DNA of 35,752 bases from a virus. The position numbers were made by a program, and so were the translations under genes. Shown piece by piece: positions 1,327-33,772 of this stretch. Position 1 is the first letter of the stretch. Each line of letters starts with the position of its first letter. The notes beneath the pieces were generated by a model. It was given only the letters and a program-made list of their open reading frames with translations, had not been told where the DNA came from and searched no databases. The DNA lies in IMG/VR virus record IMGVR_UViG_3300021364_000077, positions 1 to 35,752 of that record. The stretch is one strand, 5' to 3'.

Positions 1327-1845
1327 ATGGGTAACAAAGCCACCGTGAAAGCGCTCCGTAAGGACCTCAAAAACGATATCATCGATTCAGCCGCAAAAAT
1401 AGCTATGAAGAAAGCAACTGCCGCAGGCGAAACCCGTAAGCTCCAGGCTAAAGCAAACTCCCCCACAAGAAAACAAAAAAATATACAGGACTATACACGC
1501 CACTTCCTGCGCTACCGCCTAGAGATGACCGAGCAGGAATACCTAAACGCAGTATCCAACAAACTATCCGCCATAGTCGGAGACAATCTAAACCTCATCC
1601 ACGAAAAACTAGACCAAATACCCCCGCAGAACCTAGCATACACACTCTCAGTCCTCTTCGACAAACTCATGACCATAAACGGCAGACCCACAAACATCAC
1701 CGCTTCTGCCAATGTAAAACTAGGCGCATCCGATATGACACCGGATAAAGTACGCTCAATCCTAAAAGGTGCAAAATCCGCAACAGATTCCCTACCCAAG
1801 GAAGCATCTCAGGATAAGGTCATCGAAATAACTGATGAAGCGTAG
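1327..1845 (+). CDS. Hypothetical protein, possible small-terminase or DNA-binding protein
   Basis: This 172-aa protein is Lys/Arg/Ala rich at the N-terminus (residues 1-60). A helical core contains IPPQNLAYTLSVLFDKLM followed by NGRPT, and the C-terminal tail is acidic. The segment of the form LAxTLxxLxDKxxxxxGxPT occurs in small phage proteins near packaging genes, so a small terminase subunit is one possibility. This is weak recollection only, and the gene lies about 3.5 kb from terL across the presumed circular junction. It overlaps the next gene by 11 bp. The first ATG is used; no strong Shine-Dalgarno is visible. Confidence 0.55.
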   Translation: MGNKATVKALRKDLKNDIIDSAAKIAMKKATAAGETRKLQAKANSPTRKQKNIQDYTRHFLRYRLEMTEQEYLNAVSNKLSAIVGDNLNLIHEKLDQIPPQNLAYTLSVLFDKLMTINGRPTNITASANVKLGASDMTPDKVRSILKGAKSATDSLPKEASQDKVIEITDEA

Positions 1846-2254
1846 AGGCTCCCTCTACGAACAAACTTTCTTCACCGAAGCACTAGCCCGTAATCTCGAA
1901 GTATTTACACCCCTGGGCGATTACCTACCACAGGATTGCCTAGTCATGAACCAAGCAGGCAAAATCTTTAAAGTGCAAATAAAAGGCACTAAGGATAAAG
2001 TAATCGATAAAGCAAATAAAGGACAGGGCAGATATATGATTACCACTTCCACGGGAAGATCCAAGAAAGAGTCGATAGATTGCACGAAAGTCGACATACT
2101 CGCCGCATATGTCGAAGCCATACCCACTTGGTACATAATACCATGCCTAGAAATAAACCAATGCATACGCATATCCCTATACGCTCATAACCCACTATCC
2201 AAGGGAAAGCACGAAAAGTACCGCGAGGCGTGGGATCTCTTTAAAACACCCTAA
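1835..2254 (+). CDS. PD-(D/E)XK endonuclease-like protein
   Basis: The 139-aa protein has the arrangement seen in PDDEXK_5-type and archaeal Holliday-junction-resolvase-like nucleases. An N-terminal helix (SLYEQTFFTEALA) is followed by a strand with PLGDYLPQDCLVM and then KIFKVQIKGT. The D of QDCLV (about residue 34) and the Q-I-K of KVQIK (about 47-49) fit the catalytic D...[E/Q]xK core. This protein could process branched DNA or act as a restriction-like enzyme. It is translationally coupled to the preceding gene and is the last gene before a long non-coding region. Confidence 0.6.
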   Translation: MKRRGSLYEQTFFTEALARNLEVFTPLGDYLPQDCLVMNQAGKIFKVQIKGTKDKVIDKANKGQGRYMITTSTGRSKKESIDCTKVDILAAYVEAIPTWYIIPCLEINQCIRISLYAHNPLSKGKHEKYREAWDLFKTP

Positions 2255-2286
2255 AACTACATACGGATACTCTGCTATTCGTGAGG

Positions 2287-2430
2287 TGCGGGGAAACGCA
2301 TGATCGGGAACCGATCCGCGTATAAGGCAAGGACTACCGCTTGGTACGGGGAAATGGCATCATAGCGCTAAAACGCTAGGGCAGGATTGCGGGGAAAACC
2401 ATATGGCGAAAAAATTATGCGGGGTGGTGA
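2287..2430 (+). ncRNA. Possible structured RNA with repeated CGGGGAAA motifs
   Basis: CGGGGAAA occurs at 2290-2297, 2347-2354 and 2390-2397, with a partial copy at 2420. Local hairpins are visible: TGCG/CGCA around the first motif, GATCGG-GAA-CCGATC at 2302-2316, and TAGCG-CTAAAA-CGCTA at 2363-2378. The segment has no reading frame of interest. Its sense strand is unknown; plus is assumed because flanking genes read that way. It could equally be a DNA element. Confidence 0.3.
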
Positions 2431-2440
2431 TGATAATACA

Positions 2441-2516
2441 GAATTAGCGCGAGACGCGGCGTGACCCCCTCCCCCCCCTGTGGCGTGGATCGCGTCTAGT
2501 TTTTAGCGCGTAATTC
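2441..2516. repeat. Long imperfect inverted repeat with cytosine-rich loop
   Basis: The left arm is GAATTA, GCGC, AGACGCG (2441-2458). It pairs with CGCGTCT (2491-2497), then GCGC and TAATTC (2507-2516), with a small bulge on one side and an 8-nt bulge on the other. The loop contains ACCCCCTCCCCCCCC. The structure could be a cruciform origin element, a transcript-end hairpin for the 1327-2254 genes, or a single-strand initiation site. There is no U-run, so a standard intrinsic terminator is unlikely. Confidence 0.5.
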
Positions 2517-2557
2517 CGAATCACATGCTAAACGATAGCGTTGAATAGCAACGATTT

Positions 2558-2647
2558 ACGCAAATTAACGCAAGGATTGACGGAAGAAATGCTAGTATTT
2601 AAGCGGTTTTGCGTGGTTGCGTGGACCGGTTTGTACGGTCTTGCGTG
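2558..2647. repeat. TTGCGT box cluster (iteron-like)
   Basis: TTGCGTG occurs at 2609-2615, 2617-2623 and 2641-2647, and the reverse complement ACGCAA at 2558-2563 and 2568-2573, the latter two exactly 10 bp apart. A GACCG/CGGTC hairpin lies between the second and third direct copies. Clustered boxes on the face of one helix turn suggest a protein-binding array, for an initiator or a regulator. Confidence 0.4.
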
Positions 2648-2912
2648 CAATGTCTTACAATCTGCTTTACACGAGTATAGCAAATTTGTGGTGGGGTGCA
2701 GAAATGCATTTCCTTCCGTTACCTTTCGTCATTTGTTTCTCGTCTCCTTCTCGCCATCCCTTTTCCTCGTCAATCATTCCCCTTGCGCTGGATCAAACGC
2801 CATTGATTTTGGAGCTTGTTGCGTTGTTGGCGCTCGATCATTCCGATGGTGAAACCATCTCGGTGATCCGCGTAATAGCGCTTGGCGCTTGTGTAGTATA
2901 TAAGCGGTAGTT

Positions 2913-2965
2913 TACACAAAAAACACTTTTTATTTGACTATGTAACGTGTGTTTGTATTTGTAGT
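2913..2965 (+). promoter_or_regulatory. Early-operon control region with 16-bp shared site
   Basis: TACACAAAAAACACTT at 2913-2928 is identical, in the opposite orientation, to a site at 10045-10060 upstream of the RHH regulator. It is followed by TTGACT (about 2934) as a -35-like element and by TTTGTA repeated three times at short spacing. No good -10 is seen at 17 bp. This is the only plausible start region for the plus-strand early genes. Confidence 0.4.
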
Positions 2966-3008
2966 TTGTAGCGAGGCAATTAAGCCAAGCGGTAAAGAAA
3001 GATATATT

Positions 3009-3251
3009 ATGAAAAACACTACTTACAACGGTTGGACTAATCGCTCTACTTGGTTGATTAACCTATGGTACGAGCCACACACTGAAAGCGATCTTGATTG
3101 GATAAAGGAGGAACTTGAGGAGCGCGTGAGTTCATTATCCAATAGCGATAATGTATGCGACAAGATACTTGCGGACATGCTCAACCTACAGGAAATCGAT
3201 TGGGATGAGTTGAAGGAGCATGTTGAGACAGAAGAAACTTGCGAGGTTTAA
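3009..3251 (+). CDS. Conserved small phage protein of NGWTN-type
   Basis: This 80-aa acidic protein opens with TTYNGWTNRSTWLINLWYE, a signature (YNGxTNxxTWxxxLW) that I recognise from a widespread phage family of unknown function (of the DUF7249 kind). The rest is helical and acidic. The ATG at 3009 follows AAAGAAAGATATATT, a leader resembling that of the 4236 gene. An upstream in-frame start at 2949 would add residues from the promoter region and is not used. It is the first gene of the early plus-strand operon. Confidence 0.75.
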   Translation: MKNTTYNGWTNRSTWLINLWYEPHTESDLDWIKEELEERVSSLSNSDNVCDKILADMLNLQEIDWDELKEHVETEETCEV

Positions 3252-3722: not shown

Positions 3723-4052
3723 ATGAGCTACAAAGAAGAACATCCCGATTGGATCGCCCCAAGTGACTTCCGCTTGGATGAATTAGAGAAACTAGGATTT
3801 GAGGACATCTCATGGCATAATGATGCTTGTCCATTCTTTGAGAATGAGAAACACGGATTAAATCTGCATGTCGATTATCAAGAGAAATTGAGCGATACGC
3901 CAAGCGATCCATTTATGAGGTATCACTTATTGCGATATGATTACGATCAAGAAACCAAGGAATACGATCAAAGCGGATGGAACGCGGATTTGCTCATCTC
4001 ATCGAATACCTTCGCGGATATCATCAAAGCAATAAAGGAGAAACTCGCATGA
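3723..4052 (+). CDS. Hypothetical early protein (109 aa)
   Basis: The product is an acidic aromatic-rich protein (MSYKEEHPDWIAPSDFRLDE at the N-terminus) with no recognised domain. It follows the preceding gene by 5 bp and overlaps the next by an ATGA, so it is co-translated with its neighbours. No membrane segment or signal is present. Confidence 0.65.
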   Translation: MSYKEEHPDWIAPSDFRLDELEKLGFEDISWHNDACPFFENEKHGLNLHVDYQEKLSDTPSDPFMRYHLLRYDYDQETKEYDQSGWNADLLISSNTFADIIKAIKEKLA

Positions 4053-5704: not shown

Positions 5705-6976
5705 TCACCAAGGCGGATCAGATGGTTTTTCATCATTATGCAATCGCGCTTCCGGAGAGAAAGTGCCAATGCTCTTCTCAAATACTAGATGACATGCTCT
5801 GTCCGTCTCTCCGCCACGGTTCTTTGCGAGATGGCAAAGAATCTTGTCCTTCGTATCATCGAGCTTCTTCTCCACGCTAAGGAGAAACGCGACATCGCAG
5901 TCCTGCTCGATGGACCCACTCTCACGCAAATCCGATAGCATTGGCTTGCGGTTGGCGGTTTCGAGTTGCCTGTTCAATTGAGAAAGGGCGAGGATCGGAA
6001 TCTGTAGTTCCATGCTGATCTGCTTCAATGAGCGAGAAATGTGCGACACTTCCTGCACTCTGCTATCAAATCCTGGAGCGGATAGGAGTTGCAGGTAATC
6101 AATCACCGCAAGCCCGACATCTCCTTTCACTCGCTCCTGGGCCAAGAAGGCGCGAAACGAATCAAGCGTAGCCTTGTTATCATCTTTGAAAGTAATGGGC
6201 CATCCCTGCATCCTCGTTGTGGCATCCTCTAGTCTTTTGCGATGGGCGGGAAGAAGCACTCCCGCTTGGCGTGGACGGGCAACCCCGCTTTCGCGGGAGA
6301 GTAACCGTCCTGCGCATTCACTCGCTGACATTTCGAGGGATGCGTAAGCCACGCGGTATCCCCTCTTCGCAATCTCATGAGAGAAATGTATCGCTAATGC
6401 TGACTTCCCTACTCCGGGTCTTGCACCTATGCAGTACAAACGCCCAGGTGTGAATCCACCGCCAAGATAATCATTCAACTTTGGGAACCCCGTGGGGATG
6501 GCGGAGGAGTCTCCCGCATCTATCGAGAGAAACTCCGAGTATGCTTCCTTTGCCGCCTTTCCCGCTTGCACCTGGCCCTTGCCCTGTGACAGGGCTTTTG
6601 CCACTTGCATGTTGAACTTTCCCGCAATCTCCTCCGTTGGTTTTCCTTCCTTGAGAAGATCCATCGATTGCAGGAGGGCGCGTTCCGCGAGTCTCCTGTT
6701 CCGGGAATCCACCAATTGGTCCACATACCTGTCCACCTGTCCACCGCCATACTTCTCCGCAAGCTCGATAGCATCCGAGGCATACTCAGGTAGCTCGATT
6801 GCCACATCCACCTCGTTTAACTCGGATCGGTTCCCGATCAGGCGGAATATAGCGCTATGGGCGGGAGAGGAGAAGTCATCCTCTGTTAAACGCTCAAGGG
6901 CGATGGCAGAGGAGAGATTACTTTCGTCACGCAGACATGCGGAAAGAACTGCCTGCTCGGATGTGAAGTAATCCAT
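5705..6976 (-). CDS. dnaB: Replicative DNA helicase, DnaB family
   Basis: This 423-aa protein has the two-domain DnaB layout. The N-terminal helical domain (residues 1-100) begins with the typical EQAVLSACL. The RecA-like domain carries Walker A GARPGVGKS at 184-192, Walker B VIDYLQLL at about 291-298, and the later LRESGSIEQDCD block. It would unwind DNA at the phage fork. It overlaps the upstream loader-like gene through TGATG and is last in the replication operon, which converges on the terminator at 5587-5647. No phage DNA polymerase is seen, so host polymerase is probably recruited. Confidence 0.95.
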   Translation of the reverse strand: MDYFTSEQAVLSACLRDESNLSSAIALERLTEDDFSSPAHSAIFRLIGNRSELNEVDVAIELPEYASDAIELAEKYGGGQVDRYVDQLVDSRNRRLAERALLQSMDLLKEGKPTEEIAGKFNMQVAKALSQGKGQVQAGKAAKEAYSEFLSIDAGDSSAIPTGFPKLNDYLGGGFTPGRLYCIGARPGVGKSALAIHFSHEIAKRGYRVAYASLEMSASECAGRLLSRESGVARPRQAGVLLPAHRKRLEDATTRMQGWPITFKDDNKATLDSFRAFLAQERVKGDVGLAVIDYLQLLSAPGFDSRVQEVSHISRSLKQISMELQIPILALSQLNRQLETANRKPMLSDLRESGSIEQDCDVAFLLSVEKKLDDTKDKILCHLAKNRGGETDRACHLVFEKSIGTFSPEARLHNDEKPSDPPW

Positions 6977-7503
6977 CAGTCGAATTTGAGCTTTGGCTCG
7001 GAAGACTGTGGAATATTCTTTTTAATCCACATTCGACATGCATTCCGAAAACCTGCGTTCCAATCCACATACGTTTTCCCTTTGCTCTTTGCCCAATCTC
7101 TGAACATTGCAATCGCCTTCTCATGATCAATTCCATGATTCTCCGCAATCTCTCTAGGAGGATCGAAGTCATCGGGAATTAGAGTTTCCTTTTTCCTCTT
7201 AGGCTCAGAAGGTTCAAGTGTCTTGGTGGAGCTATTTTCGCTATATTTAATATAAGAACAATTCGTAGAATTGTCGTGTACGCGCGAGGAAGTGTCTCCA
7301 TGAAGACACTTGGAGTAACTTGAGAGTCCGCAAATTATGAAGTGTTTTAGTCCCTCATGATATTTAAATGTACCCTCGTCCGACACGAAGTCATTATCAT
7401 CCAACCATTGATTAAATCTATACAATAGATTGCCTTTTAGTGTTACAGATGTTTTCTTTTTATCGAAACACACCTCTGTGTTTTTCTGTTTTTTATCCGC
7501 CAT
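6976..7503 (-). CDS. Replication protein with helicase-loader (DnaT/O-like) C-terminal domain
   Basis: The 175-aa product has an N-terminal domain ending near residue 70, a polar linker rich in Ser/Asn/Lys, and a C-terminal helical domain. The last reads IAENHGIDHEKAIAMFRDW ... YVDWNAGFRNACRMWIKK, the pattern of DnaT-like and phage replication protein O/P C-termini that contact DNA and the helicase. It sits directly before dnaB. ATG 7503 is chosen because AGGA lies 7 nt upstream and it overlaps the stop of the 38-aa gene (TAATG). A TTG at 7626 would add 41 residues that overlap that small gene. Confidence 0.7.
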   Translation of the reverse strand: MADKKQKNTEVCFDKKKTSVTLKGNLLYRFNQWLDDNDFVSDEGTFKYHEGLKHFIICGLSSYSKCLHGDTSSRVHDNSTNCSYIKYSENSSTKTLEPSEPKRKKETLIPDDFDPPREIAENHGIDHEKAIAMFRDWAKSKGKTYVDWNAGFRNACRMWIKKNIPQSSEPKLKFD

Positions 7504-7619
7504 TATAATCCTAATATTGTGCAAATTAATCCTATTATTATCGTAAAGAAAATTACTCCGCAGACGGCAAATAGTATGCCCTGAAGGAGTATTTTCAGTA
7601 TGCTTTTTATGTATTCCAT
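7503..7619 (-). CDS. 38-aa single-span membrane protein
   Basis: This short ORF fills the gap between the resolvase and the helicase-loader gene. The protein begins MEYIKSILKI and is almost wholly hydrophobic thereafter (LLQGILFAVCGVIFFTII and on), so it should be an integral membrane peptide. It starts 4 bp after the resolvase stop, and its TAA overlaps the next ATG (TAATG). No family is recognised. A membrane anchor for replication or a small lysis/superinfection protein are both possible. Confidence 0.55.
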   Translation of the reverse strand: MEYIKSILKILLQGILFAVCGVIFFTIIIGLICTILGL

Positions 7620-7622
7620 TTC

Positions 7623-8081
7623 TCAATTATTGATCAAATGATGACGGAGAATTAGGATCGCATCTGCTGTTTTTAATGTGAGTCCCTTCGTTGACGGAAA
7701 GAACTGCTTGGCGTGATTCATGAGCGCTTTCTTGCGCTTATTTGAGGTTAGTCCACTTAGTCCACTTAGCCCTTTCTGCCACTCCTGTGGACGCACCAGG
7801 ACAAACGGAATCTCCAATGCCCTGAGTACGCCTTCCAAGAATCCGCATGATTTACCAAGCTTAAAGCTAGTGCTCGATGGGATATTTCTGCCCGCAAAGG
7901 GTGGAACATGCTCAACCACAGCCTCGATGCTCGTCACATCCGGGTGGTCTTTAAGGTCCTGCAAATGCTCCACAAACTCGAAGTCTTCATCAAGAGTATG
8001 CAGTGCAATCTTATGCTGTCCACCCCATGCAATTGCGTACCCACCGGACTTACCGGGGTCTATGCCAATCGTGAGCTTCAT
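7623..8081 (-). CDS. RuvC-like Holliday junction resolvase
   Basis: The 152-aa protein has an RNase H-fold opening (IGIDPGKSGGYAI, catalytic Asp at about 8), a second acidic strand (IEAVVEHVPPF), a conserved Lys/Arg helix region, and a final KTADAILILRHH with the last catalytic Asp. Length and motif order match phage and bacterial RuvC. It would cut four-way junctions formed during recombination and before packaging. It overlaps the 68-aa gene upstream by 4 bp (ATGA). Confidence 0.85.
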   Translation of the reverse strand: MKLTIGIDPGKSGGYAIAWGGQHKIALHTLDEDFEFVEHLQDLKDHPDVTSIEAVVEHVPPFAGRNIPSSTSFKLGKSCGFLEGVLRALEIPFVLVRPQEWQKGLSGLSGLTSNKRKKALMNHAKQFFPSTKGLTLKTADAILILRHHLINN

Positions 8082-32092: not shown

Positions 32093-33772
32093 TTAATACC
32101 CACCACCACCTGTACACATCAAGCTATTGTGACTAATGTGATCAGCACCGCTAATCATTAGGTATCTGATGCAATCTACGAAATCCTTAAAATGCTCCTG
32201 TCTCGAACTGCCCGTATATTCTAGCATCGAGGATATCAGGTTTTCGCACCTGTCAGACACAAAGAGTTTGGGCCTGTTCTTATCGGTCATTGGCTCAGTA
32301 TCATCCCATGCTAGTGCATCATTGATTTTCGCAATACCCGCTTCCACTTCCACGCCTGGAGCGGGACGCATGACAAAGTCAAGATTCGCCATTGTGTTAA
32401 TTATGTTACTCTCCCCCTCCTTCTCCCTGACGGTGGCCGCTCCCATGCGGGGGTCAACGATTCGCTCGAATATATCCTCGCCCTCCTCCAATGCCTCGAA
32501 GTGATCGCGGTAATCAATGTACCCCCAACCGAGTGGCCTTTGGGCAGGGCCGGGCTTTCCCACGCTCTTGCCTACGGCATTAACATGCGGCAATGCCCAT
32601 TGGCCCATCGATGAATCGGGGAACTCACGATAAACATAGATTGATCCGTCCTCTAGCACACCCGCCCATATCGCCACCCACGGTTTACTTCCGCCAGGAT
32701 CGCCTACAAAGTAGCGAGTGGCACGCACTGTAGGGTCGGCGATGAAGGGGATTCGTTCATGGGGGACGACATTGGTGTCGCGGTTGAACTTAGGGAATCT
32801 CCCCTCCATCGCCTTGCTAGGTATGCCGTATAAGCGTGCGAGTTTTACCTCTTGTGGTTGTTTTGAGTAGGTGCGGATGAGTTCGTTGTAGTCAACGAAC
32901 GGGGACATCTCAGACCAAAAATAATAAATTCTACAATCAGGCCAATTGGTGGATATCTGCTCAATAGGTAACTCACGCCCCAACAATTCGCTGTACTTCG
33001 CCTCCACCGTCTCAGCGCCTTTTAACAGACTATTAATCAATGGGGTCCACCCTTGCAAGGTGGTGAAGGTTAACAGTACCCGTCCGTGGTAGTCCACAGT
33101 TCTGCCTCCTACCAATGTCTCGAATATCTGTTCAGGCGCTTCCTCATCCATATGAATGCAATGCGCTGACCATCCCTCAAATATCTGCGGGTCTGCCTGA
33201 TACTGCCTATAGTTATTAAAAGATATTGTACTCCCCCGTTCCGCACCTGGCGTGGTTGGCGGTAGGATCGCCTTGGCGGAGTTGAATCCATTCTTTTGTG
33301 TGTACTGCAAGGAATGGTTCTCACTCTTCTTCTTTGCCCGTTTGTACCTCATGGGAAGTGCTTCCCATATGTACCTTTGGGCATCCGCAATACTTCGCTC
33401 TTCCGATACATGCAAGGAACGAATCTCAGCTTCGGGAATAGTCTGTGCCATATGTACAAGAAGACGGGAAGCGAAAGTTGTCTTTGATGAACGATTACCG
33501 CCGAGGACCACATGAATCTTCGTATCCTTCCAATTATCCATCACCCGTCTCCATCCCGGAAGAGTCCAACCCCATTGGATTGGATCTTCCTTCTCCGACT
33601 CCGGTTGGTCCAATATCAAACGGGACAAGGTTTCTGCGCGCTCCTGCGGTAAGGCATCGATCTCCTCACTCGATAATGCACACGCAAGCTCGCCCTTCTC
33701 ATACTTCAAATCAGGTATCCAAGGAATACCAAAGTGGGCATCTACCTCATCTGCGTAGGTTATCTTAGCCAT
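32093..33772 (-). CDS. terL: Terminase large subunit
   Basis: The 559-aa protein has an ATPase domain with Walker A-like GGNRSSKT at residues 91-98, Walker B with catalytic acid HMDEEAP at about 207-213, and a coupling motif (LLTFTTLQG) at about 233-241. The C-terminal RNase H-like nuclease begins with VGDPGGSKPW at about 356-365, followed by later acidic residues (GYIDYRDHFEALEEGE). It cuts and pumps DNA into the prohead through the portal. It overlaps the upstream nuclease-like gene by 8 bp. Confidence 0.95.
   Translation of the reverse strand: MAKITYADEVDAHFGIPWIPDLKYEKGELACALSSEEIDALPQERAETLSRLILDQPESEKEDPIQWGWTLPGWRRVMDNWKDTKIHVVLGGNRSSKTTFASRLLVHMAQTIPEAEIRSLHVSEERSIADAQRYIWEALPMRYKRAKKKSENHSLQYTQKNGFNSAKAILPPTTPGAERGSTISFNNYRQYQADPQIFEGWSAHCIHMDEEAPEQIFETLVGGRTVDYHGRVLLTFTTLQGWTPLINSLLKGAETVEAKYSELLGRELPIEQISTNWPDCRIYYFWSEMSPFVDYNELIRTYSKQPQEVKLARLYGIPSKAMEGRFPKFNRDTNVVPHERIPFIADPTVRATRYFVGDPGGSKPWVAIWAGVLEDGSIYVYREFPDSSMGQWALPHVNAVGKSVGKPGPAQRPLGWGYIDYRDHFEALEEGEDIFERIVDPRMGAATVREKEGESNIINTMANLDFVMRPAPGVEVEAGIAKINDALAWDDTEPMTDKNRPKLFVSDRCENLISSMLEYTGSSRQEHFKDFVDCIRYLMISGADHISHNSLMCTGGGGY

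Follow-up and report, generated by a model that had tools for sequence, protein, structure and literature searches.

Extent and Contents of the Gap

What function resides in the one large non-coding gap of an otherwise compact phage genome? The window, by which we mean the whole stretch of DNA that was analyzed, is a 35,752-base record from a virus. Its ends (positions 1 and 35752) are contiguous in relatives, with about 165 bp that the window lacks between them, indicating that the record is a nearly whole, circularly mapping genome. The unstranded gap at 2255–3008 is the only one in the window longer than 310 bp, and its position is conserved in relatives. It extends from the stop of an ORF at 1835–2254 (+ strand), which encodes a protein of the PD-(D/E)XK nuclease family (PDDEXK_5), to the start of the ORF at 3009–3251 (+ strand), and two overlapping TTG-start ORFs (2541–2852 and 2617–2910) lie within it. 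The original prediction had described a large gap holding repeated words, hairpins, an inverted repeat, TTGCGT boxes, a polypyrimidine tract, and an AT-rich end, and all of these are present. It had also called the gap a candidate origin or control locus, and the locus is both real and clearly conserved in relatives. Two other identities were discarded, namely a known RNA family, since no tRNA or Rfam match was found in the gap, and an attP site, since the integrase lies 8 kb away.

The heart of the gap is a 70-bp module read on the + strand. It is composed of an A/T tract (2409–2416), the G-run GGGGTGG (2421–2427), a highly conserved AT-rich element, GATGATAATACAGAA (2429–2443), that is similar to a -10 box or to a melting element, and the C-run C5TC8 (CCCCCTCCCCCCCC; 2465–2478). 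Counted from the C-run, the A/T tract sits at offset -56 to -49 and the G-run at -44. The pattern C5TC7 occurs once in the window and in none of 100 shuffles. Across the clade, the order of elements is GCGAAAAA, the G-run, GTGATGATAATAYAGAA, some 20–30 variable GC-rich bases, and C5NC7. The window does contain the long imperfect inverted repeat that had been noticed around the oligo-C, but some relatives have not kept its arms, and a conserved hairpin around the C-run was ruled out by their loss in L050, L090, L105, L133, and L202.

Upstream of the module, degenerate iteron-like repeats occupy 2287–2407 (+ strand), and the repeated word CGGGGAAA is indeed found there three times, at 2289, 2347, and 2390. 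Repeats of this type are not significant in the window alone (p=0.07). Direct repeats reach p<0.05 in 38 of 72 non-redundant upstream regions from the clade, and the consensus in relatives is TGCGGGGAAACCGTATGGC. Exact tandem copies of 20–22 bp abut the core in several relatives; in some, there are three identical 21-bp copies that extend into the core. A 25-bp stretch that includes GATCGGGAACCGATC (2297–2321) also has a 92% match at 6820–6844, on the other strand and inside the DnaB gene.

Conservation of the Core Within a Viral Clade

Relatives were retrieved through the upstream 172-aa gene, the small downstream gene, and DnaB, and they align across the gap. A block at about 2390–2715 is kept in close relatives, and the core at 2398–2485 persists even where the flanking genes no longer align. 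When loci were collected independently by means of the 172-aa gene, the element was found at a fixed position in 66 of the 68 with enough sequence, the exceptions being a variant (L263) and a core without the C-run (L292). Both L292 (845–1100) and the end of L300 present the full core with neither C-run nor GC arms, which may reflect natural deletion or assembly collapse. At the end of L261, the contig departs from phage sequence within the C-run and continues into an unrelated tail that may be vector or chimeric sequence.

A degenerate core pattern matched 110 viral contigs. The same pattern gave a single convincing match among 84,980 bacterial and archaeal species genomes, on a Kapaibacterium MAG contig (L230, 1–1042) in which the phage core stands at the end, beside a frame running into a truncated host gene. 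This contig is probably a chimera and the MAG is without the neighbor gene; a prophage in bacteria was accordingly rejected. Phage isolates and plasmids scanned for the core yielded chance matches only.

Gene order around the core is fixed in the clade. A repressor-like gene points leftward, the 172-aa gene and a gene of 139–202 aa point rightward, and the core follows about 50–300 bp past the latter, succeeded by roughly 500 bp free of genes and then by variable small genes. In the window, the conserved left side of the locus features a sigma-70 region-4-like protein beside an HTH repressor-like protein (342–833 and 820–1266, both on the - strand). The 172-aa gene (1327–1845, + strand) adjoins the core in the clade, and profile comparisons match its family to genes in the TerS position of other phages, at 7.7e-9, 5.9e-7, and 0.002, as well as at 63% in an hhalign comparison with a TerS-position gene. 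These scores are weak and the structure model was too poor to use, but they suggest that the 172-aa protein is small-terminase-like. A profile match of 99.9% between this family and L364 was set aside, as the query contained a clade member.

The Motif Outside the Clade and Its Link to Terminase

A pattern-only scan for GGGG and then C5TC7, unconstrained in any other way, returned 116 viral loci of many kinds outside the clade. TerL was recognized in 70 of these, spanning at least 21 TerL clusters, and in all 70 it lies to the left of the C-run on the opposite strand, within 2.5 kb in 65 cases. Since the seed proteins for this count came from the same locus set, the search was repeated with an independent PHROG HMM (phrog_2), which recognized TerL in 35 of 50 records; DnaB was present in 13 of the same 50. 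Among the 19 whole contigs that were readable from coordinates, orientation was the same in every one and the distance was within 2.3 kb in 18. The adjacency to terminase in constant orientation that characterizes a packaging site is thus observed outside the clade, and within the clade it is the TerS-like gene that adjoins the core. In the window, TerL (32093–33772, - strand) is about 4.5 kb from the C-run on the circular map. The C-run is again upstream of TerL and on the opposite strand, so that it reads as a G-run on the terminase-coding strand.

The resemblance extends beyond the C-run itself. Aligned on the C-run, the 116 loci give a consensus with an A/T tract near -55 and a G-rich segment at -40 to -30, offsets that are as in the clade, and the A/T tract stands at its fixed offset in 52 of 116 loci vs. 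11 of 109 controls. The deposited genome C75C1, whose TerL is 31% identical, carries CCCCCTCCCCCCC immediately upstream of the terminase genes. In L364 and L352, the C-run and the start of TerL overlap, and this is a known kind of location for a packaging site, as the pac site of SPP1 overlaps gene 1, encoding TerS (PMC6316719). The sequence GGGGGAGGGGGGGG between TerS and TerL of ctKR88 was considered and rejected, its polarity being reversed and its TerS being without a match.

The mirrored motif C7TC5 had been intended as a control, and it also proved to be linked to TerL, in 22 of 36 records and in the same orientation in 11 of 13 readable whole contigs. Such mirrored runs upstream of terminase in other phages make up L432–L523. 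An initial TerL control (3/109) was biased, having been seeded from the test set, and is contradicted by the unbiased search. Strict specificity of C5TC7 is therefore not claimed; either both kinds of interrupted C-run are used, or the main gap upstream of terminase is simply where long C-runs persist. Near the site, contig ends are modestly enriched on one side only and share no single position. Such scattered ends speak against simple cohesive ends in the present data and fit headful packaging or cellular DNA; no cluster of contig termini marks precise cos ends.

Packaging Initiation as the Favored Reading

The recurrence of a terminase-tied motif outside the clade, together with the TerS-like 172-aa neighbor, favors initiation of DNA packaging. 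We hold it to be somewhat better than an even bet that the core (about 2287–2532) is a packaging-initiation site, cos- or pac-like, and a packaging start is more likely than a replication start as the signal in this gap. The small terminase, probably the product of 1327–1845, would bind the upstream repeats, by analogy to lambda, in which cosB carries an IHF bend in addition to three TerS sites (PMC4669245). The A/T tract would help with bending or positioning of the DNA. TerL would then be loaded and introduce the first cut at or close to the G-run and C-run, the latter being the putative region of docking or cleavage.

Known packaging sites offer partial parallels. Like lambda cos (cosQ-cosN-cosB), the locus is a non-coding site near terS/terL with one-sided repeats proposed to bind TerS, a proposed bending element, and a conserved proposed cut region. 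It differs from lambda cos in that no lambda-like cosN was recognized and no contig termini fall at the site, in the 4.5-kb distance to TerL in the window, and in that the module is common to divergent TerL groups. Like SPP1 pac (pacL-pacC-pacR), it lies beside or overlaps TerS, is two-sided, and fits circularly permuted contigs. A reference title cited in PMC6316719 reports that SPP1 cutting needs no sequence specificity at the cut, whereas the C-run here is strictly kept.

Several observations count against packaging. In the clade of the window, some 4.5 kb separate TerL from the site and the TerS-like gene is encoded on the other strand, and the linkage of C7TC5 means that part of the TerL association may be an effect of genome layout. 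Contig ends form no sharp cluster, L292 and L300 carry a core without the C-run, the GC-skew minimum described below is left unexplained, and the identity of TerS depends on weak scores. The fixed A/T tract and the strict conservation within the clade nevertheless argue for a function, even if the specificity of the exact motif is unproven.

Packaging sites are usually considered phage-specific. It is a tentative proposal, with the chances leaning against it, that the A/T tract, G-run, and interrupted C-run at fixed spacing constitute a packaging-start signal common to many divergent terminases in uncultured phages. If the packaging reading is true, one recognition or cutting motif can be common to divergent terminases, and the module provides a sequence handle for the packaging start in many contigs of uncultured phages, and hence for their true map ends.

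Replication Origin and Other Alternatives

An alternative possibility, which we regard as rather unlikely, is that the gap is also, or instead, an iteron-type theta origin. An initiator, for which the replication-initiation-protein-like gene at 6976–7626 (- strand) is the candidate, would bind the tandem repeats, melting would occur at the A/T tract and at GATGATAATA, and DnaB (5705–6976, - strand) would be loaded; the promoter-like sequence may activate the origin. The gap had been named the best candidate for the origin, with cumulative GC skew suggested as a check, and the skew minimum does fall at 2280. In most relatives it lies no more than 200 bp upstream of the core (near it in 46 of 52), and the change of sign, which lies between two same-strand gene blocks, is visible at third codon positions. 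In addition, initiator-like and DnaB genes are both in the genome, and the tandem iterons beside an A/T-rich unwinding region that typify such origins are found in relatives, the repeats being degenerate in the window. Iterons beside an A/T element are likewise a feature of lambda ori, which has four 19-bp iterons and an AT-rich region (PMC3985674; PMC7466680); here the tandem repeats of about two helical turns abut the A/T element, and lambda shares with this genome the presence of DnaB and a GC-skew minimum. Unlike lambda ori, the site is outside the initiator gene, has an added G-run/C-run module, and is linked to terminase elsewhere. Against the origin claim, in unrelated phages the most conserved part is tied to terminase rather than to DnaB: the same core is found beside terminase in phages mostly without a recognizable DnaB, and the switch in skew polarity seen in the clade is absent in these other core-bearing phages, in which it is not seen on the right side. 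Were the gap an origin instead, an uncultured marine clade would have in this core a conserved signature of its origin.

Mitochondrial CSB II is a C-run with a G-quadruplex RNA primer. The interrupted C-run here is of the same kind, but the likeness is one of resemblance only, with no shared machinery, and no leftward promoter is shown here.

Less probable still is an activator-dependent promoter, with the upstream repeats as activator sites and GATAAT as the -10 box, driving a leader or small RNA that would include the C-rich segment and the hairpin of inverted repeat IR2 (2502–2532, + strand). The sequence [N]ATAATAYAGAA is strictly conserved at fixed spacing, and the arms of IR2 covary between groups, pairing at 5.8 of 8 positions vs. 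3.76 ± 0.24 when permuted, with G-U exceeding A-C mismatches (44 vs. 18) when read on the + strand. However, no sigma-70 promoter was found, the GATAAT box is replaced in L260 and L263, and early genes have their own TTGAC motif. The suggestion that the gap might encode a structured RNA is weakly supported, by one hairpin that covaries between groups; the lack of an Rfam match speaks against it, and covariation within groups is nearly absent (3 of 41 pairs), too little to support a within-group consensus structure. The IR2 hairpin may be part of a transcript, although neither a promoter consensus nor an RNA family supports this.

That the C-run is mostly tolerated low-complexity sequence in the largest non-coding gap, its TerL link following from genome layout, is very improbable: mirrored C7TC5 is similarly associated with TerL, but the conservation of C5TC7, of the A/T tract offset (with its excess over controls), and of the core sequence exceeds that expected of a neutral gap.

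Downstream Part of the Gap

The remaining features on the list lie to the right of IR2, all on the + strand. TTGCGT boxes were found at 2609, 2617, and 2641, forming a cluster (2609–2646), and again at 2819, and the word is abundant in downstream regions of the clade (84 observed vs. 14 expected). The polypyrimidine tract (about 2708–2769) is kept mainly in close relatives. The AT-rich end contains a promoter-like TTGAC motif (2934–2939) just 5' of the first small ORF, and this motif recurs in relatives. Lastly, a 43-bp palindromic element (GATCATTCCGAT...GATCCGCG) is present at 2830–2872 of the window, at 3997–4039 of L241, and in other relatives. Relatives have it again, with altered arms, about 2 kb farther downstream, which suggests a small mobile or regulatory hairpin.
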